DNA of 64,000 nt, from assembly GCF_028993615.1 (NCBI RefSeq), contig NZ_CP118632.1, positions 930,001 to 994,000 on the forward strand, read 5' to 3'. Below the pieces are notes generated by a model. That model did no database searches. It saw nothing but the letters and a program-made list of their open reading frames with translations, and had not been told where the DNA came from. Both the position numbers and the translations under genes were made by a program. This DNA is from Herbaspirillum sp. WKF16 (lineage in GTDB: Bacteria; Pseudomonadota; Gammaproteobacteria; Burkholderiales; Burkholderiaceae_D). Positions 7,463 through 15,379 of the stretch are shown piece by piece. Position 1 is the first letter of the stretch, and each line of letters starts with the position of its first letter.

Positions 7463-7634
7463 TTTTCCGGTGTCGCAAGACGCGCTGTTTCGATACGTTG
7501 CGGATCGAAAATTCCCAATGGAAACAAAGGCTTGGGAAATCGCAAATAATTTGCGCCAGCCCGCTTTACCGCTGTAAAGATTGCCGCACGCGAACCGTAA
7601 TCAGCCATAAGAGCTCCACACATGGAGAGTGAAC

Positions 7635-9464
7635 ATGGCCATCGAAACGGAAATCGCAGTGGCGGCACGCGATGCCTTGCCGCCTTTCACCTCGCAGGCG
7701 CCGGCCAACCACGCCGGGGCCGACGCCTCCGGCCGCGCGCCGGCACCGGCCGCCGCAGTCGCGCCTGAGGAAGGCGTCACGCTGACCTTGTCCTCGCAAG
7801 GCCGCCTGCTGGCCGCCCTGGCCGGCATCGTCGACAGCGCCGCCGCCGATGCATCTGCCGCCGCCGCTGCCGAGGATGTGGCCGCGCCGGCGGCGCAAGC
7901 CAAGCAAGCCGATGCTGCCGCAACCGCGCAGCCCATCACCCGCGCCACGCTGTACGCCATCGAGGCGCGCCTGGTAGCCGCCCGTCGCGGCGCCGATGCC
8001 GTGCGGCGCGCCGACGCCGAGGCGCCGCCATCGGACGACCCGGCGCGCCTGGCGCAGGCGCGGCAAGCCACCGCATCGCTGTACGGGCGCGCGGCCAATC
8101 CTTTCTCCGGCCTGTCGCGCGCCGAACTCTCAGCCATCGTCTACGACGAGAGCGGCGCCTACACCACCAACGAACGCTACGCCGCCGCCAATGAGCGCGC
8201 CGAACAGGATCAGCGCTTCTGGGCGCCGGTGTTCCAGCGCGCGCTCGGCAGCGGCGACTGGCGTCCCGTGATCGAGGCGGCGCTGGTGTTCTACGCCACG
8301 CTGTCGCCGCTGGAGCAGACCGCCTATCCGGACAACTATGTGCAGCTGATGCGCCAATACCTGGCGCTGTACAACCTGCAGCCGCAGGCGCCGCTGCCGC
8401 CGCAGCAGCAGGCCGACCTGCAGCAGATGATGGCGGCGCTGGCGCTGCCTTCCGGGCCGCTGGCGCTGGCCGGCGGGGTGATCCGCGGCCTGGTGCTGCC
8501 GCGCGCGCCGTCGCTGGCCGAGCTGGTGGCGGCGGCGCCGCACCTGGCGGACCTGGTGCAGGTTTCCAATCTGGCGCACAGCGTGCAGGACGGCGCCTAC
8601 CTGGTGCTGCTGCAGCGCGTCTTCGGCATTTCCCGGCGCGAGGATGAGCCGCCGGTGGCGCGCCGCAGCGGCAACGCCGGCACGCCCGCGCGCGACTATC
8701 TCTCCTTCGGCGATCGTCGCTACCTGGCCGATGCCTACGCTTATGCGCAGGCCAACGGCATCGCGCCGGAAGAGGTCGACGCGCTGGCCGCCGACCTGGC
8801 GGCCTACCGCCAGGCGCGCATGGCCGGCGCCAATGCGGGCGGCGACGTGCAGCGGGGCGCGGGCGGCGTGGTCGCCGGCGTCGCGCCAGCCGATTACCGC
8901 CGGCATGCCGACGACATGGCCACCGCGCAGCGCATCCTGGCCAGCCGCGCCGCGCGCGATACCCGGCTCGACCACGGCTTCCTGGCGTGGCTGCTGGATC
9001 CCGCCGGTGGCTGGAGCGGGCAGGGCGCCATCGGCCATGCGGTGCGCCTCTCGGCGCTGGAGCGGCTGCTGGCCGGCCTGGCCGGCGTCGGCATCGACGA
9101 GCGCGCCGGCGACGACAGCGAGCTGGAACCCGGCTACCGCTACGCGCTGTACCGCATCGGCCTGCAGGAGACGAGCGAGGCCCGCCTGCCGGGCGCTGCC
9201 GCCGACGGCGCGCGCAGCCTGACGCTGGCGGCGCAGATGGCGGCGCTGGCGCGCGCCGAGGCGACTGACCTGGCCTTCATGAACAATGCGTTGATGCTGC
9301 TGAAGATGTATCGCTTCTCGCTCAGGATGAGCGATGCCGAGCAGCGCACGCTGGCCGAGCTGGTGTATTCCAGCCTGCGCAAGCGCCGCCTGCGCCCGCG
9401 TCGCGGCAAGCTGTTCGTGCTGTGGGGCGAGCGCAGCCCGTCGATGCCGCCCTTGCCGGGTTGA
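7635..9464 (+). CDS. Large protein of unknown function
   Basis: A 609-residue protein that I cannot assign to a family. There is no signal peptide or membrane helix. The first 110 residues are rich in alanine and low in complexity, with a VTLTLSSQGRLLAAL segment. The middle (about 140-330) looks helical, with clusters of aromatic residues (AEQDQRFWAPVFQRAL; AALVFYATLSPLEQTAYPDNYVQLM). The last 40 residues are strongly basic (LRKRRLRPRRGK). The start was set to ATG 7635, 5 bp after GGAGAG; an in-frame GTG lies two codons earlier. It stands alone between an ABC operon and a convergent LacI gene. Base composition matches the neighbours, which argues against recent transfer. Confidence 0.6.
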   Translation: MAIETEIAVAARDALPPFTSQAPANHAGADASGRAPAPAAAVAPEEGVTLTLSSQGRLLAALAGIVDSAAADASAAAAAEDVAAPAAQAKQADAAATAQPITRATLYAIEARLVAARRGADAVRRADAEAPPSDDPARLAQARQATASLYGRAANPFSGLSRAELSAIVYDESGAYTTNERYAAANERAEQDQRFWAPVFQRALGSGDWRPVIEAALVFYATLSPLEQTAYPDNYVQLMRQYLALYNLQPQAPLPPQQQADLQQMMAALALPSGPLALAGGVIRGLVLPRAPSLAELVAAAPHLADLVQVSNLAHSVQDGAYLVLLQRVFGISRREDEPPVARRSGNAGTPARDYLSFGDRRYLADAYAYAQANGIAPEEVDALAADLAAYRQARMAGANAGGDVQRGAGGVVAGVAPADYRRHADDMATAQRILASRAARDTRLDHGFLAWLLDPAGGWSGQGAIGHAVRLSALERLLAGLAGVGIDERAGDDSELEPGYRYALYRIGLQETSEARLPGAAADGARSLTLAAQMAALARAEATDLAFMNNALMLLKMYRFSLRMSDAEQRTLAELVYSSLRKRRLRPRRGKLFVLWGERSPSMPPLPG

Positions 9465-9476
9465 GCGGCGCGCGCG

Positions 9477-10583
9477 TCAGGGCAGGTTCTCGCGCAGGAT
9501 CACGCTGATGCGCACCGCTTCCACGCCGGAGAGGGCATCGCGCCGTTCGCGCAGGTTGGCGAAGATGCGCACGCAATTCATGATCATGTTCTGCGGATGC
9601 TGGGTCAGCACCGCATCCATGGTGCCGTCGATCAGCAGGCCGCGCGTGTCGGGCGTGAGGCCGTGGCCGATGAAGACCACTTTCTGGTCGCGACCGCATT
9701 CCTTCAGGGCGCGGCCCACGCCGTCCGAGGCGCCGCCGATGTTGTACATGCCGGCCAGGTCCGGATACTGTTCCAGCAGGATGCGCGCCTGCTTGTAGTT
9801 GGCGTCGGCATCGTCATGCCCCTCGCGCAGGCCTACCACCTGGACCTGCGGGCACATCTCCTCCAGCACGTGCTGGAATCCCATCTCCCTTTCCTCATGG
9901 CCGCGATAGCTCAGGCTGCCGGCGATCATGGCGATCTTGCCCGGCGTGCGCCCGGCTCCCGGATTGGTCACCTCGCGGTCGAGGAAGCGCGCCAGCAGCA
10001 TGCCGGCGGTGCGGCCGGCGGCGCGGTTGTCCATGCCGACGTAGGCCGCGCGCAGCGAGTTGGAGAGGTCGGAGATCAGCGTCACCACATGCACGCCTTC
10101 GGCCGCCAGCGTGTTGACCGCCTCGCGCACCAGCGGATGCTCCAGCGCCATGAAGGCCACGCCGTCGGCCTGGCGGCCGTAGTGCAGCAGGCGCTGCGCC
10201 AGCACGCGCGGATTGAAGCCCTCGATGTGGTGGCACTTGCAGCGCACGTTGAAGGGCGCAAGCTGCTCTTCGGCGAAGCCGATGTAGTCGCCCAGCATTT
10301 GCATGTAGCGGTTGCTGCGCGGCGGCAGCAGGAAGGCCAGTTGCATGGCCTGCGGGCGCAAGGCCTTGTACAGGTCGGACTCGGGCAGGTAGCCCAGCGC
10401 GGCGGCGGCCTTGATCACCAGTTGCTGGGTCGCCGCGCGCACGCCGGGGCGCCCGTTGAGCACGCGATCGACGGTGGCGGTGGAAACGCCGGCAGCAGCC
10501 GCGATGTCGGTGACACGCGCGCGGCTGGCGGCTGGCGCGGGTGCGTTCGCGAGGGAAGAGGGCTTGCGTTTCTGGTCGGGCAT
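9477..10583 (-). CDS. LacI family transcriptional regulator
   Basis: A 368-residue repressor. The N-terminal LacI helix-turn-helix is at about residues 22-72 (RVTDIAAAAGVSTATVDRVLNGRPGVR, cited as the domain landmark). It is followed by a periplasmic-binding-protein-like sensor domain of the type that binds sugars or sugar derivatives (MALEHPLVREAVNTLAAEGVHVV; YNIGGASDGVGRAL). The start at 10583 was chosen because the helix-turn-helix is close behind it. It is divergent from the TRAP/VOC/RuBisCO-like/kinase operon, 256 bp away, and is the likely regulator. A TTTGAT-TAC-ATCAAA palindrome sits 19 bp upstream of its start codon. Confidence 0.92.
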   Translation of the reverse strand: MPDQKRKPSSLANAPAPAASRARVTDIAAAAGVSTATVDRVLNGRPGVRAATQQLVIKAAAALGYLPESDLYKALRPQAMQLAFLLPPRSNRYMQMLGDYIGFAEEQLAPFNVRCKCHHIEGFNPRVLAQRLLHYGRQADGVAFMALEHPLVREAVNTLAAEGVHVVTLISDLSNSLRAAYVGMDNRAAGRTAGMLLARFLDREVTNPGAGRTPGKIAMIAGSLSYRGHEEREMGFQHVLEEMCPQVQVVGLREGHDDADANYKQARILLEQYPDLAGMYNIGGASDGVGRALKECGRDQKVVFIGHGLTPDTRGLLIDGTMDAVLTQHPQNMIMNCVRIFANLRERRDALSGVEAVRISVILRENLP

Positions 10584-10601
10584 GGCCTGGTTCCAGGTAT
10601 G

Positions 10602-10616
10602 TTTGATTACATCAAA
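10602..10616. promoter_or_regulatory. Candidate LacI-type operator
   Basis: A perfect inverted repeat TTTGAT-TAC-ATCAAA, in the gap between the LacI gene and the TRAP operon. A second, looser repeat TCAAA-N7-TTTGA follows at 10622-10638. The location supports autoregulation and control of the divergent operon; binding is inferred. Confidence 0.5.
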
Positions 10617-10839
10617 AACCATCAAAAAGCGGCTTTGACCGCGCGGATTCGGCGGCGATATTCTGCAGCCTTGCTTCAGGCTGGAAGCAACCGGGCGAGG
10701 TTGGTTGGACGAGGACGGCATGCGGGCGCCGAAAAAGTCTAAATCAAATCGAATCAGAAAGCATCATCAGAACATGCGGATACAGCCCCGGCGCCCCGCC
10801 GCGGCCGCCGCGCACAACACCAATCATTGGGAGACGACG

Positions 10840-11877
10840 ATGGACATGCCAGGCGATACACTTTCCGGCCGGCGCGCCTTTCTGAAGAAGGCGACGCTGG
10901 CTTCAGCCGCCGCAGCCGCGTGCCTGTACGGCACGCAGGCGCATGCGGCCGAGTTCACGCTGAAGTACGGCAACAACCTGCCCATGTCGCACCCGATGAA
11001 CGTGCGTGCCAAGGAGATGGCGCAGAAGATCGCCGCCGAATCCAAGGGCCGGGTCGAGCTGCAGGTCTATCCCAACGGCCAGCTCGGCACCGACACCGAC
11101 ATGCTCTCGCAGGTGCGCTCGGGCGCCATCGACTTCTTCACGATCTCGCCGGAAGTGCTGGGCACGCTGGTGTCGGCCGGCCAGATCAGCGGCGTGGGTT
11201 TCGCCTTCAAGGACTACAGCCAGGTATGGGCCGCCATGGACGGCGAGCTGGGCGCCTACGTGCGCCGCGAGATCGCCGCCAGGACCGCGCTGTTCGCCTT
11301 CGAGAAATGCTGGGACAACGGCTATCGCCAGGTCACCACCAGCACTCGCGCGATTGCCAGGCCCGAGGATTTCAAGGGCATGAAGCTGCGCGTGCCGCCC
11401 AGCCCGCTGGCGACTTCGCTGTTCCGCGGTTTCGACGCCTCGCCCACCAGCATCAACTTCGCCGAGGTGTACTCGGCGCTGCAGACCAGGATCGTCGAAG
11501 GCCAGGAAAACCCGCTGGCGGTGATCGCCACCGTCAAGTTCTACGAGGTGCAGAAATTCTGTTCCATGACCAACCACGTCTGGAGCGGCTTCTGGTTCAT
11601 GGGCAACAAGAAGTCCTTCGAGCGCATGCCCAAGGAACTGCAGGACATCGTCGCGCGCAACATCAACGAGGCCGGCCTGAAGCAGCGGGTCGACGTCAAG
11701 GCGCTCAACGACTCGCTGGTGGCCGACATGAAGGCCAAGGGCCTGCAGTTCAACGAGATCGACAACGCCGCCTTCCGCGCCAAGCTGCGCGGCGCCGGCT
11801 TCTACGCCGAGTGGCACAAGAAGTTCGGCGACGAGGCCTGGGCGCTGCTGGAAAAATACACCGGAAAGCTGGCCTGA
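10840..11877 (+). CDS. TRAP transporter substrate-binding protein (DctP family)
   Basis: A 345-residue extracytoplasmic solute receptor. The leader GRRAFLKKATLASAAAAAC resembles a twin-arginine signal, with cleavage at about AHA-AE. The mature part shows DctP features: NLPMSHPMNVRAKEMAQKI, VYPNGQLGTDTDMLSQVRSGAIDF, and MKLRVPPSPLATSLFRGF with the arginine that usually binds the substrate carboxylate. The start follows GGGAGACGACG; an upstream in-frame extension has no ribosome site. TRAP systems import organic or sugar acids with sodium, which fits the downstream sugar-acid enzymes. The two membrane subunits (DctQ, DctM) are not in this window. Confidence 0.92.
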   Translation: MDMPGDTLSGRRAFLKKATLASAAAAACLYGTQAHAAEFTLKYGNNLPMSHPMNVRAKEMAQKIAAESKGRVELQVYPNGQLGTDTDMLSQVRSGAIDFFTISPEVLGTLVSAGQISGVGFAFKDYSQVWAAMDGELGAYVRREIAARTALFAFEKCWDNGYRQVTTSTRAIARPEDFKGMKLRVPPSPLATSLFRGFDASPTSINFAEVYSALQTRIVEGQENPLAVIATVKFYEVQKFCSMTNHVWSGFWFMGNKKSFERMPKELQDIVARNINEAGLKQRVDVKALNDSLVADMKAKGLQFNEIDNAAFRAKLRGAGFYAEWHKKFGDEAWALLEKYTGKLA

Positions 11878-11897
11878 CCACATCAACAAGGAAAAAC

Positions 11898-12437
11898 ATG
11901 AGCCGCTTTCTCGGAGAGATAAAACAGCTGGGCTACGTCGTGGCCGACATCGAAGCCGCGATGAAGTATTGGACCGAGGTGCTGGGCGTGGGCCCGTTCT
12001 ACTACATGGAGCGGGTGCCGTTGAAGAACTACCGCTACAAGGACCAGCCCTACGAGATCCACAACTCAGTGGCGCTGGCCAATTCGGGCGGCGTGCAGGT
12101 CGAACTGATCCAGGCGCGCGGCGACACGCCGTCGATGTATCGCGACTTCATGAAGAACGGCCAGACCGGGCTGCAGCACGTGGCCTACTGGACCGAACAC
12201 TTCGACCGCGACTTGCGGCTGCTGCTGGATCGCGGCTGGAAGGTCGGCATGAGCGGCGAGGTCGGCGAGCGCGGGCGCTTCGTCTACTTCGAGACCGAAT
12301 ACCACCCCGGCACGGTGATCGAGCTGTCCGAAGTGGCCGGGCCCAAGGGCCGGGTGTTCCGCATCATCCGCGAGTCGTCCGAAGGCTGGGACGGCAGCGA
12401 TCCGGTGCGCGCCTTCCCCGACCTGAGCAAGCTGTGA
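11898..12437 (+). CDS. VOC superfamily (glyoxalase-like) protein
   Basis: A 179-residue protein with the two beta-alpha-beta-beta-beta modules of the vicinal oxygen chelate fold. Module one starts LGYVVADIEAAMKYWTEVLGVGPFYY. Candidate metal ligands are the glutamate in VQVELIQ, the histidine in LQHVAYW and the glutamate in VIELSE; the position that often supplies a first histidine appears to be leucine. The nearest general type is the methylmalonyl-CoA epimerase/glyoxalase_4 group, catalysing isomerisation or C-C cleavage next to a carbonyl. It lies 20 bp after the TRAP receptor and 2 bp before the RuBisCO-like gene, so it probably acts on the same substrate. The precise reaction is unknown. 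Confidence 0.8.
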   Translation: MSRFLGEIKQLGYVVADIEAAMKYWTEVLGVGPFYYMERVPLKNYRYKDQPYEIHNSVALANSGGVQVELIQARGDTPSMYRDFMKNGQTGLQHVAYWTEHFDRDLRLLLDRGWKVGMSGEVGERGRFVYFETEYHPGTVIELSEVAGPKGRVFRIIRESSEGWDGSDPVRAFPDLSKL

Positions 12438-12439
12438 CG

Positions 12440-13729
12440 ATGGGCCCCGCGACATTGCCGATGGACGGCAGCCGCTTCTCGGCCGACTACCTGATCGAGA
12501 CGCCGCTCGACCCGGCCGCCGTGGCCGAGGTCATGGCCGGCGAGCAATCCTGCGGCACCTTCGTGCGGGTCGAGGGCGAGACCGACCAGTTGCGCCGGCG
12601 CGCCCGCGCCGTAGTGGAGGCAATCGACGAACTGGAGGGCGTGGCCCGGCCCAGCCTGCCCAATGCCTGGCAACAGCGCCAGGGCATGGCCGGCCCTTAT
12701 CGCCGCGCGCGCATCCGCATCTCCTTCCCGGTGGAGAACGTCGGGCCCAACCTGCCCACGCTGGCCGCCACCGTGGCCGGCAACCTGTACGACCTGGGCG
12801 AGGTCACCGGACTGCGCCTGCTGGACCTGACGCTGCCGGCCTCGTACCGGCGCCGCTTCGACCTGCCGCGGCAGGGCATCGCCGGCACGCGCAAGCTGGC
12901 CGGCGTGGCCGATGCGCCGCTGCTGGGGACTATCATCAAGCCCAACGTCGGCCTGTCGCCGGAAGAGACCGGCGAGTTGGTGGGCCGCTTGTGCGAAGCC
13001 GGCGTCGACTTCATCAAGGACGACGAGGTCTGCGCCAATCCTTCGCATGCGCCGCTGGAGCAGCGGGTGCGCTCGGTGATGCGGCGCGTGCGCGCCTGGC
13101 GCGAGAAGAGCGGGCGCAACGTCATGGTCGCCTTCAACATCAGCGACGACCTGGACAGCATGCGCCGCCACGCCGAGCTGGTGGAACGCGAAGGCGGCAG
13201 CTGCGTCATGGCCAGCCTGAACTGGTGCGGCTATTCCGCCATCCAGAGCCTGCGCCGCAGCACGCCGCTGGCGCTGCACGGCCACCGCAACGGCTTCGGC
13301 ATGATGTCGCGCGAGCCGCTGCTGGGCATGTCCTATCCGGCCTACCAGGCGCTGTGGCGGCTGGCCGGGGTGGATCACCTGCACGTGCACGGGCTCAACG
13401 GCAAGTTTTCCGAATGCAACGACGAAGTGGTGCAGTCCGCGCGCGCCTGCCTGGCGCCGATGTCGGACGGCGACGCGGTGATGCCGGTGTTTTCCAACGG
13501 CCAGTGGGCCGGCACCGTGCATCCCACCTTCGAGGCCATCGACAGCAGCGACGTGATCTTCCTCTCCGGCGGCGGCATCCTGGCGCATCCGGACGGCGCC
13601 GGCGCCGGCGTGGCCAGCCTGCGCCAGGCCTGGGACGCGGCGCGCGCCGGCATCGCGCTGGACGAGTACGCGAAGCAGGCGCCGGAGCTGCAACGCGCCA
13701 TCGGCTTCTACGGCGCCCGGCTCAAATGA
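12440..13729 (+). CDS. RuBisCO large-chain-like protein (type IV RLP)
   Basis: A 429-residue protein with both RuBisCO large-chain domains. Using spinach numbering for comparison, E60 and T65 correspond to E35 and T40 in EQSCGTF; N123 to N115; K175 to K167 in GTIIKPN; and the carbamylated-lysine and metal set K201/D203/E204 to K193/D195/E196 in DFIKDDE. H294 corresponds to H282, H327 to H317, loop-6 K334 to K322 in NGKFSE, and S379 to S376 in LSGGG. The second lysine of KPK is Asn. Members of this group include 3-oxo-isoapionate-4-phosphate decarboxylase and transcarboxylase/hydrolase, which act with a DUF1537 kinase, exactly the gene that follows. Photosynthetic carbon fixation is not implied. 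Start ATG 12440; MDG at 12461 is an alternative. Confidence 0.88.
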   Translation: MGPATLPMDGSRFSADYLIETPLDPAAVAEVMAGEQSCGTFVRVEGETDQLRRRARAVVEAIDELEGVARPSLPNAWQQRQGMAGPYRRARIRISFPVENVGPNLPTLAATVAGNLYDLGEVTGLRLLDLTLPASYRRRFDLPRQGIAGTRKLAGVADAPLLGTIIKPNVGLSPEETGELVGRLCEAGVDFIKDDEVCANPSHAPLEQRVRSVMRRVRAWREKSGRNVMVAFNISDDLDSMRRHAELVEREGGSCVMASLNWCGYSAIQSLRRSTPLALHGHRNGFGMMSREPLLGMSYPAYQALWRLAGVDHLHVHGLNGKFSECNDEVVQSARACLAPMSDGDAVMPVFSNGQWAGTVHPTFEAIDSSDVIFLSGGGILAHPDGAGAGVASLRQAWDAARAGIALDEYAKQAPELQRAIGFYGARLK

Positions 13730-13751
13730 GCGGGAACGAGGAGCCGATGCA

Positions 13752-15095
13752 GTGAGGCCCGCATTCCTCGACGGCCGCCCCAAGATCGCCTTCTATGGCG
13801 ACGACTTCACCGGCGCCACCGACACCCTGGCCACCGCCACGCTGGCCGGCCTGCGCAGCCTGCTGTTCCTGCGCCTCCCCGAACCGGCGCAGCTGCGCGC
13901 GGCGGGCGAACTCGATTGCCTGGGCATTGCCGGCGCCGCGCGCTCCATGGATCCGGAGCAACTGCGTGTCGAGCTGGAGCCGGTGTCGGCATTTTTCTCG
14001 GGCCTGCGCGCGCCGGTCACGCACTACAAGATCTGCTCCACCTTCGACAGCGCGCCGCAGGTGGGCAACATCGGCGCCGCGCTGCGCATCTGGCGCGCGC
14101 GCATACCCAATCCCTTCGTGCCCATCGTCGGCGGCCAGCCCAACCTGCGCCGCTACTGCCTGTTCAGCCACCTGTACGCCGCCGCGCAGGCCGGCGGCGA
14201 GGTGGTGCGCATCGACCGCCATCCGACCATGCGCCGCCACCCGGTCACGCCGATGGACGAGGCCGACCTGCGCCTGCACCTGGGCCGGCAAGGGCTGCAG
14301 GTCGCCGGCCTGCACTATCCGCTGTATGGCGATGCGCAGGCATTTGACGCGCACATCGAGGAACTGCTGGCGGCGCGTCCCGACGCCGTGCTGCTTGACG
14401 TCGCCCGCGAGGCCGACCTCGCCGCCATCGGCCGCGCGATCTGGACCCGCGCCATCCGGCAAGAGCTGCTCGCCGTCGGCGCCAGCAGCGTCGTGCAGGG
14501 GCTGGCCGCCTGGTGGCGCGAGCAGGGCTGGCTGGAGGAAGGCAACGCGCCGCAGATGACTATCGCTCCTGCACGCGGTCCGGTATTCGCGCTGGCCGGC
14601 AGCCTCTCGCCGGTCACCGCGCAGCAGGTCGGCGCGGCGCATTCCTACGACAGGCTGCTGCTCGACGCGCAGCGCCTGGTCGCGGGGGAGGAAGGCTACC
14701 TGGCCGCCATCGTCGCGCGCATCGCCGACGGCCTGCGCGCGGGTCGCCACGTGCTGGCCTGCAGCGCCGCCCATGAAGGGGAGCGCCGGCTGTTGTCCGA
14801 CGCGGGCGCCGCGCAGCGCCTGGCCATGGCATGCGGACAGTTGTTGCGGCGGGTGCTGCAGGCGGCGCCGGTGACGCGCGTGGGCGTGGCCGGCGGCGAC
14901 ACTTCCAGCCACGCATTGAAGGCGCTGGATATCTGGGGGCTGTCCTATCTCGGCAATCTGTCCCCCGGCGTGGCGCTGTGCCGCGCGCATGCGCAGGCAG
15001 CCGGCCTGGATGGCCTTGAGATCATGCTCAAGGGCGGGCAGATGGGCGGGGCGGACCTGTTCGAGCGCTTGCTGGAGGGAACGCTGGCGGGGTAG
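13752..15095 (+). CDS. Four-carbon acid sugar kinase family protein (DUF1537)
   Basis: A 447-residue two-domain kinase. The N-terminal substrate domain opens with the family signature FYGDDFTGATDTLATA, and the C-terminal nucleotide domain ends with VAGGDTSSHALKAL. Known members phosphorylate D-erythronate, D-threonate or 3-oxo-isoapionate. GTG at 13752 is the only start that precedes the signature closely, with ACGAGGAG about 9 bp upstream. It starts 22 bp after the RuBisCO-like gene. The pairing suggests phosphorylation of a keto sugar acid, which the RuBisCO-like enzyme then cleaves or decarboxylates. Substrate identity needs assay. Confidence 0.88.
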   Translation: MRPAFLDGRPKIAFYGDDFTGATDTLATATLAGLRSLLFLRLPEPAQLRAAGELDCLGIAGAARSMDPEQLRVELEPVSAFFSGLRAPVTHYKICSTFDSAPQVGNIGAALRIWRARIPNPFVPIVGGQPNLRRYCLFSHLYAAAQAGGEVVRIDRHPTMRRHPVTPMDEADLRLHLGRQGLQVAGLHYPLYGDAQAFDAHIEELLAARPDAVLLDVAREADLAAIGRAIWTRAIRQELLAVGASSVVQGLAAWWREQGWLEEGNAPQMTIAPARGPVFALAGSLSPVTAQQVGAAHSYDRLLLDAQRLVAGEEGYLAAIVARIADGLRAGRHVLACSAAHEGERRLLSDAGAAQRLAMACGQLLRRVLQAAPVTRVGVAGGDTSSHALKALDIWGLSYLGNLSPGVALCRAHAQAAGLDGLEIMLKGGQMGGADLFERLLEGTLAG

Positions 15096-15256: not shown

Positions 15257-15379
15257 ATGCGTATTTCCGCAATCGTGCTGGGCACCGTCTTCATGCTGCA
15301 TTCCCAGGTCGCCAGCGCCAAGGGCGTCATGTCCCATCTGGTGGACGGCTTCGTCTTCTTCATGAACAACTGGTACTGA
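15257..15379 (+). CDS. Small exported peptide of 40 residues
   Basis: A short gene missed by most length cut-offs but well supported. GGGAGG lies 5 bp before the ATG, the protein begins MRISAIVLG with a clean hydrophobic core and an ASA-K type cleavage site at about residue 21, and an excellent terminator begins 24 bp after the stop. The predicted mature part is only 19 residues, hydrophobic and aromatic (SHLVDGF, then FFMNNWY). It has one histidine and one aspartate and no cysteine. Candidate promoter -10 TAAAAT lies at 15153-15158. It may be a membrane-active or signalling peptide; function is unknown. Confidence 0.65.
   Translation: MRISAIVLGTVFMLHSQVASAKGVMSHLVDGFVFFMNNWY

Follow-up and report, generated by a model that had tools for sequence, protein, structure and literature searches.

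In the described pathways of D-apionate breakdown, the oxidoisomerase ApnO forms 3-oxo-isoapionate from D-apionate by an oxidation combined with a shift of the hydroxymethyl group. A kinase phosphorylates 3-oxo-isoapionate, and the phosphorylated compound is then either decarboxylated by OiaX or cleaved by OiaT, an enzyme characterised from Xanthobacter autotrophicus. The 3-oxo-tetronate pathway consists of OtnI, OtnK and OtnC. To our knowledge, few reactions have been assigned to RuBisCO-like proteins (RLPs). PMC6302742 sets out the D-apionate pathway with OiaT as ApnO, OiaK and OiaT, and PMC11747546 lists the enzymes of the apionate pathway down to the decarboxylase. Here we describe an operon on a stretch of 64,000 nucleotides (the window) from Herbaspirillum sp. 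WKF16 (contig NZ_CP118632.1, positions 930,001 to 994,000), in which co-oriented genes encode a substrate-binding protein (SBP) of a tripartite ATP-independent periplasmic (TRAP) transporter, a VOC-fold protein, an RLP and a DUF1537 kinase and are spaced 20, 2 and 22 bp apart. Judged from its sequence, the operon appears to be a hitherto undescribed, redox-free entry to apionate breakdown. An initial annotation had reported this gene set, its spacing and a divergent LacI regulator, all of which are upheld by the coordinates and the Pfam assignments (Table 1).

The locus resembles the OiaT pathway in its adjacent RLP and DUF1537 kinase and in the catalytic residues kept by the RLP, and the RLP–kinase pair of that type occurs in the VOC operons of one genus. 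In contrast, the window operon has no ApnO-family gene and carries a VOC gene, a LacI rather than a NanR regulator and a TRAP receptor, while its RLP is about 50% identical and belongs to another clade. With the OiaX pathway (NF042437) it has the RLP and the DUF1537 kinase in common, but its RLP is 42% identical to that of locus L065 and differs at positions 123, 327 and 379. The 3-oxo-tetronate pathway also involves a 3-oxo acid, a DUF1537 kinase and then a decarboxylation, whereas the window operon has the VOC protein and the RLP in place of OtnI and OtnC.

The association of VOC, RLP and kinase genes extends well beyond this strain. The RLP had matches in 26 of the 399 genomes sampled from the order, 27 of the 397 from the phylum and 21 of the 34 from the genus, and the VOC protein in 15 of 242 genomes of one Bradyrhizobium-like genus; neighbourhood types were assigned by scanning the loci with reference proteins. 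All 47 fetched VOC loci, which were chosen by the presence of the VOC gene and are not independent (16 from the window genus, 15 from the Bradyrhizobium-like genus and 16 others), have an RLP and a DUF1537 kinase downstream, with a median VOC–RLP gap of 8 bp. A VOC gene likewise accompanies each of the 28 RLP places that, in the samples of the order, the phylum and the genus (window included), reach at least 57% identity to the window RLP, and in the phylum sample VOC proteins at least 64% identical lie beside an RLP in nine of nine genomes. VOC copies at 32–51% identity (n=15, phylum sample) show no RLP or kinase within the fetched stretches. The RLP places outside the fetched set (6/27 in the order, 4/32 in the phylum and 12/32 in the genus) are all less than 53% identical. 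The gene order, which in a VOC-type locus is LacI, TRAP SBP, DctQM, VOC, RLP and kinase, recurs from Burkholderiales to Azospirillum, Roseomonas, Alloyangia and Paracoccus. The idea of a local accident is rejected by this recurrence, and the operon and the association can be taken as established at the level of gene content. A literature search found no publication on a VOC–RLP link, although a mention in Carter et al. 2018, the key paper on apionate, is not excluded. Further afield, the window RLP has matches in 298 plasmid records, of which 8 regions were read. The plasmid matches H30, H35, H38, H39, H41, H42, H43 and H49 are RLPs 47–51% identical to it on plasmids of haloarchaea and Rufibacter, far outside Proteobacteria.

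The 83 labelled RLP loci comprise 47 of the VOC type, 17 of the ApnO type, 12 with a short-chain dehydrogenase/reductase (SDR) and 7 of none of these types. An ApnO-type locus contains a PF16896 (PGDH_C) protein, which from its gene context we take to be ApnO, together with an RLP and a kinase and often NanR; in Microvirga (L076), a sugar ATP-binding cassette (ABC) system, a Gfo/Idh oxidoreductase, an RLP, a kinase and a PF16896 protein are found together. ApnO and SDR genes co-occur in two loci (L024 and L075), and the VOC type overlaps neither. No PF16896 gene and no SDR at 40% identity or more was found in any of the 47 VOC loci, so that the initial observation of a missing ApnO with a VOC protein standing in its place holds across the whole set. 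With regard to the SDR-type loci (L015, L018, L020, L023, L032, L033, L041, L042, L062, L074, L075 and L077), an SDR front end lies beside the RLP and the DUF1537 kinase without VOC, and perhaps serves the direct oxidation of a 3-hydroxy acid; several of these loci have TRAP receptors related to the window SBP, and L075 also has ApnO further off.

The window RLP and kinase both score below the cut-offs of the OiaX and OiaK families, in agreement with the enzyme combination suggested initially. On the OiaX model NF042437 the RLP scores 417.9 bits against a curated cut-off of 700, which the RLP of L065, the sole OiaX-type row scored, exceeds with 781.7, and on the Form III RuBisCO model TIGR03326 it reaches 239.6 bits (cut-off 497.45). 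The kinase belongs to DUF1537, with SBD_N and NBD_C matches of 161.4 and 102.7 bits above the gathering scores and with GDDFTGA and GGDTS motifs. It is OiaK-like but stays below the cut-off of 700 on the OiaK model NF042436 (335.6 bits), and it scores 148.4 bits on the 3-oxo-tetronate kinase model NF043035 (cut-off 350). In the RLP tree, VOC-operon RLPs group in a single clade (support 100/99), the Bradyrhizobium-like genus excepted, and the window RLP lies outside the ApnO-associated (OiaT-like) clade. The structure PDB 3NWR, a rubisco-like protein presumably from Burkholderia fungorum, places inside the VOC-type clade (98*). Its molecule name carries no function, and a literature search for 3NWR in combination with other terms found no papers. 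This RLP clade, whose solved structure has no function to its name, is accompanied by a single VOC family.

In the Bradyrhizobium-like genus, four of the 15 VOC operons have VOC-clade RLPs, 63–65% identical to the window RLP. In the other 11, the RLPs (52–55% identical to the window RLP) and the kinases (38–40% identical to the window kinase) are of the ApnO-associated kind, and the VOC gene is retained. Seven of these exchanged operons were placed in a tree of 64 of the 82 RLP rows and four in more careful trees of 32 rows, near-identical rows having been thinned, and the rest were assigned by identity. In the careful trees both members of the exchanged pair cluster with ApnO-type rows, among them L036 and Microvirga L076, in a clade of 11 rows (RLP 100/100, kinase 100/97). 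Constraining all VOC-operon rows to one clade is rejected for both proteins in the careful trees (RLP p 4.5e-07, kinase p 8.0e-05) and also in the 64-row RLP tree (p 0.0012), and the VOC, SBP and DctQM proteins of the exchanged operons group with VOC-type rows. One replacement of the RLP–kinase pair appears to be the likeliest history, with its direction and the number of events as we infer them. Two RLP–kinase lineages thus stand behind the same VOC protein, and both pairs would be predicted to act on its product. Since an ApnO-associated RLP and kinase occur in 11 of the 15 operons, the VOC operons would seem to arrive by a different route at a common, or closely similar, intermediate and not to belong to an unrelated pathway. 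The initial annotation had proposed either a different substrate or a different isomerisation or cleavage step, catalysed by the VOC protein; the exchanged pair argues for another entry route.

The catalytic residues are consistent with this view up to a point. Aligned with PDB 8dht, the window RLP keeps ten RuBisCO catalytic residues, which in RuBisCO numbering are N123, K175, K201, D203, E204, H294, R295, H327, K334 and S379. All ten are present in 36/36 VOC-type, 10/10 swapped and 14/14 OiaT-like RLP rows, the last group having been picked by hand from the tree (10 ApnO-type, 3 SDR-type and 1 other row), in an alignment without L066 (stop or frameshift on extraction) and L183 (short, 329 aa). 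In the two OiaX-type rows, positions 123, 327 and 379 are changed to G, Q, and G or C. The residue pattern of the window RLP therefore speaks against OiaX-like chemistry without singling out OiaT.

Taken together, these observations lead us to favour, tentatively and with the chances slightly against it, a pathway in which the VOC protein replaces ApnO and supplies 3-oxo-isoapionate or a close relative, without NAD, to the kinase and then to an OiaT-like RLP. An acid would be taken up via the SBP, and from it the VOC protein would produce, with no need for NAD, a 2-substituted 3-oxo-4-hydroxy acid, most probably 3-oxo-isoapionate. The DUF1537 kinase would phosphorylate the 4-hydroxyl of this product, and the RLP would cleave the phosphorylated product in the manner of OiaT, presumably to 3-phosphoglycerate and glycolate. 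As the VOC operon has no redox enzyme, the imported acid should have reached the 3-oxo level beforehand, which would suit a redox-neutral isomerase. We infer from sequence and gene context what each enzyme does, which substrate is used and in which direction VOC and ApnO replaced one another. The parts differ in strength: the VOC protein is likely to be the entry enzyme to the RLP–kinase pair, while the chance that 3-oxo-isoapionate is the shared intermediate seems somewhat under even. The identity of the substrate would assign the receptor, the VOC enzyme, the kinase and the RLP together in many soil and plant bacteria, and would show whether a VOC enzyme can substitute for an NAD-dependent oxidoisomerase.

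Several points weigh against this pathway. The ten catalytic residues are also kept by 19 other non-OiaX rows, including SDR-type ones, and give no pointer to OiaT chemistry specifically, which weakens the proposal. Moreover, 19 positions (at least 90% on each side) split VOC-type RLPs from the OiaT-like and swapped ones, the agreement of the swapped rows being partly built in because they were pooled when the positions were defined. Some of these positions flank catalytic motifs (169, 317, 321 and 359), and the substrate of VOC-type RLPs may consequently differ; the exchange of the RLP–kinase pair may itself have altered the substrate. The ApnO-type RLPs do not form one clade and are intermixed with SDR-type rows. 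The place of OiaT in the ApnO-associated clade is likewise deduced from automatic names: the RLP of L036, whose closest named match among the matches listed is from Ancylobacter (88%), has 120 listed relatives of which seven (79–80%) were automatically named '3-oxoisoapionate-4-phosphate transcarboxylase/hydrolase' by JGI. A similar automatic OiaT name is borne by Achromobacter P0071, 71% identical to the window RLP, and such names do not decide. Finally, at least four kinds of transporter occur among the VOC operons, namely two fused-QM TRAP groups, a split Q/M TRAP group and an ABC transporter in L010, so that the receptor does not settle the substrate.

The VOC protein belongs to the VOC superfamily, with a Glyoxalase_4 match above the gathering score and the VOC fold, and four metal-ligand-like residues are invariant among relatives down to 31% identity. 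Methylmalonyl-CoA epimerase and the 3gm5 VOC protein have the same fold with metal-ligand-like positions in register, but the window protein is only 28% identical to 3gm5 and scores far below the epimerase cut-off (TIGR03081, 27.2 bits against 114.95). The fold matches of its model also include many HPPD structures. A related VOC subfamily (45–53% identity; L078–L088) is found in Bradyrhizobium-like and other genomes without an RLP in the stretch; several members lie near TctC receptors, LacI regulators and SDR genes, and the neighbourhoods of the 45–51% relatives, considered as a clue, offered nothing decisive.

With regard to transport, the fused TRAP membrane gene DctQM that usually lies between the SBP and VOC genes is absent, and the window operon does not encode a complete TRAP transporter. 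Of the operons of the genus, 16 in number with that of the window, five retain DctQM before VOC, ten lack it and one is cut by a contig end. All ten have a separate copy elsewhere, 87–100% identical to that of the window strain (in G763 as two pieces on two contigs). The operonic DctQM of other species is 87–93% identical to the separate copy of the window strain, and such a copy is also found in species without a VOC operon. The window genome has three DctM genes, and the nearest relative is at 3.95 Mb in a stand-alone TRAP locus (G000:C1:3953000-3958000; L067 7127-11772) that comprises a fused DctQM, two SDR genes and an SBP sharing 76% identity with the window SBP. It is plausible that the window SBP borrows the DctQM of this locus. 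In L010 (9303-12406), a VOC–RLP–kinase operon has a family-3 binding protein and two ABC permeases at the usual TRAP position. The nearest solved structure of the window SBP is 4oan, whose ligand we take to be 2-acetolactate and treat as a hint; 2-acetolactate is the dideoxy analogue of 3-oxo-isoapionate. PMC5812351 counts 2-acetolactate among TRAP ligands, with the protein left unnamed in the passage concerned. In the 4oan-like loci analysed (L093-L172, the best 80 of 587), DctQM follows the SBP in 79, the exception being L155, in which the SBP stands by itself, and an RLP, VOC or kinase gene occurs in none of them. Reading the substrate from the nearest receptor was accordingly rejected. In L095 the gene after SBP and DctQM encodes an acyl-CoA synthetase, and L099, L101 and L118 carry a similarly sized open reading frame (ORF) there.

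Among the alternatives, the one that survives best would have the VOC protein act, like OtnI, as an enediol isomerase of the glyoxalase-I kind, with a linear 2-oxo sugar acid as its substrate and a 3-oxo acid as its product, which the kinase would phosphorylate and the RLP decarboxylate or cleave. A metal-bound enediolate shift is classic chemistry of the VOC fold, and the 3-oxo-tetronate kinase match, under its cut-off as it is, together with the 19 separating positions, points the same way. So does a separate ApnO–RLP–kinase–NanR locus near 1.266-1.270 Mb of the window genome, which therefore encodes a second RLP: the VOC operon would be an addition in this strain and may serve another substrate. 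The exchanged pair in 11 of 15 operons is nevertheless easier to explain with the branched 3-oxo-isoapionate, and we consider the linear substrate possible, if on the unlikely side. It is rather unlikely that the VOC protein is an accessory that opens a lactone or hydrate, epimerises or repairs a side product without being obligatory, the kinase and RLP acting on an imported 3-oxo acid. The lack of a redox enzyme allows for the import of a ready 3-oxo acid and the 2-acetolactate hint fits such a ligand, but the content of the 4oan-like loci does not bear this out, and the constancy of the VOC gene beside the close RLPs and its persistence with the other RLP–kinase lineage suggest a needed step.

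Within the favoured pathway, in which the VOC protein replaces ApnO, a more specific version makes it a metal-dependent acyloin (hydroxymethyl-shift) isomerase that would convert an imported 2-oxo-apionate-like acid into 3-oxo-isoapionate without NAD and feed the RLP. This is a decidedly doubtful proposal; if true, it would place the isomerase half of the apionate oxidoisomerase on an unrelated fold, let a branched plant sugar acid enter central metabolism in a redox-neutral manner, and give the RLP a 2-carboxy-3-keto substrate that resembles the reaction intermediate of RuBisCO itself. Ordinary apionate breakdown with ApnO encoded in trans is very improbable and was rejected as a general rule, since, despite the ApnO-family genes present in 12 VOC-operon genomes, that of the window among them, 31 of the 43 VOC-operon genomes have no PF16896 gene (one of the 31 is 87% complete), none of the 15 VOC genomes of the Bradyrhizobium-like genus has one, and the ApnO gene of the window genome has its own RLP, kinase and NanR.

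Table 1. Features of the VOC–RLP–kinase operon and its regulatory region (window coordinates)
Feature	Position	Strand	Basis or location
LacI-family regulator	9477..10721 as listed ORF; likely start near 10583 (by eye)	-	Pfam LacI and Peripla_BP_4
Candidate operator TTTGATTACATCAAA	10602..10616	none	between LacI and SBP genes
DctP-type TRAP substrate-binding protein (SBP)	10840..11877	+	Pfam DctP
VOC-fold protein, 179 aa, proposed front-end isomerase	11898..12437	+	Pfam Glyoxalase_4
RuBisCO-like protein (RLP), VOC-associated clade	12440..13729	+	Pfam PF00016/PF02788; trees; catalytic residues
DUF1537 (four-carbon acid sugar) kinase, GTG start	13752..15095	+	Pfam SBD_N/NBD_C

A relative of the divergent LacI gene is present in 43 of the 47 VOC loci. 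The core of the candidate operator is common to the window and its Herbaspirillum relative L050 (2 of 24 loci), a weak signal given that 7 of 50 shuffles also reached two loci, and a LacI operator shared across VOC operons was rejected. The window genome consists of a single contig of 4.99 Mb, and the best named match of its RLP is from Herbaspirillum robiniae (92%). On the downstream (3') side of the LacI gene, positions 7629-9464 hold an ORF of 611 aa for which Pfam gave no match at E 1e-5. Past the operon, a 40-aa ORF (15257-15379) with a hydrophobic start, as judged by eye, possibly encodes a small secreted or membrane peptide.

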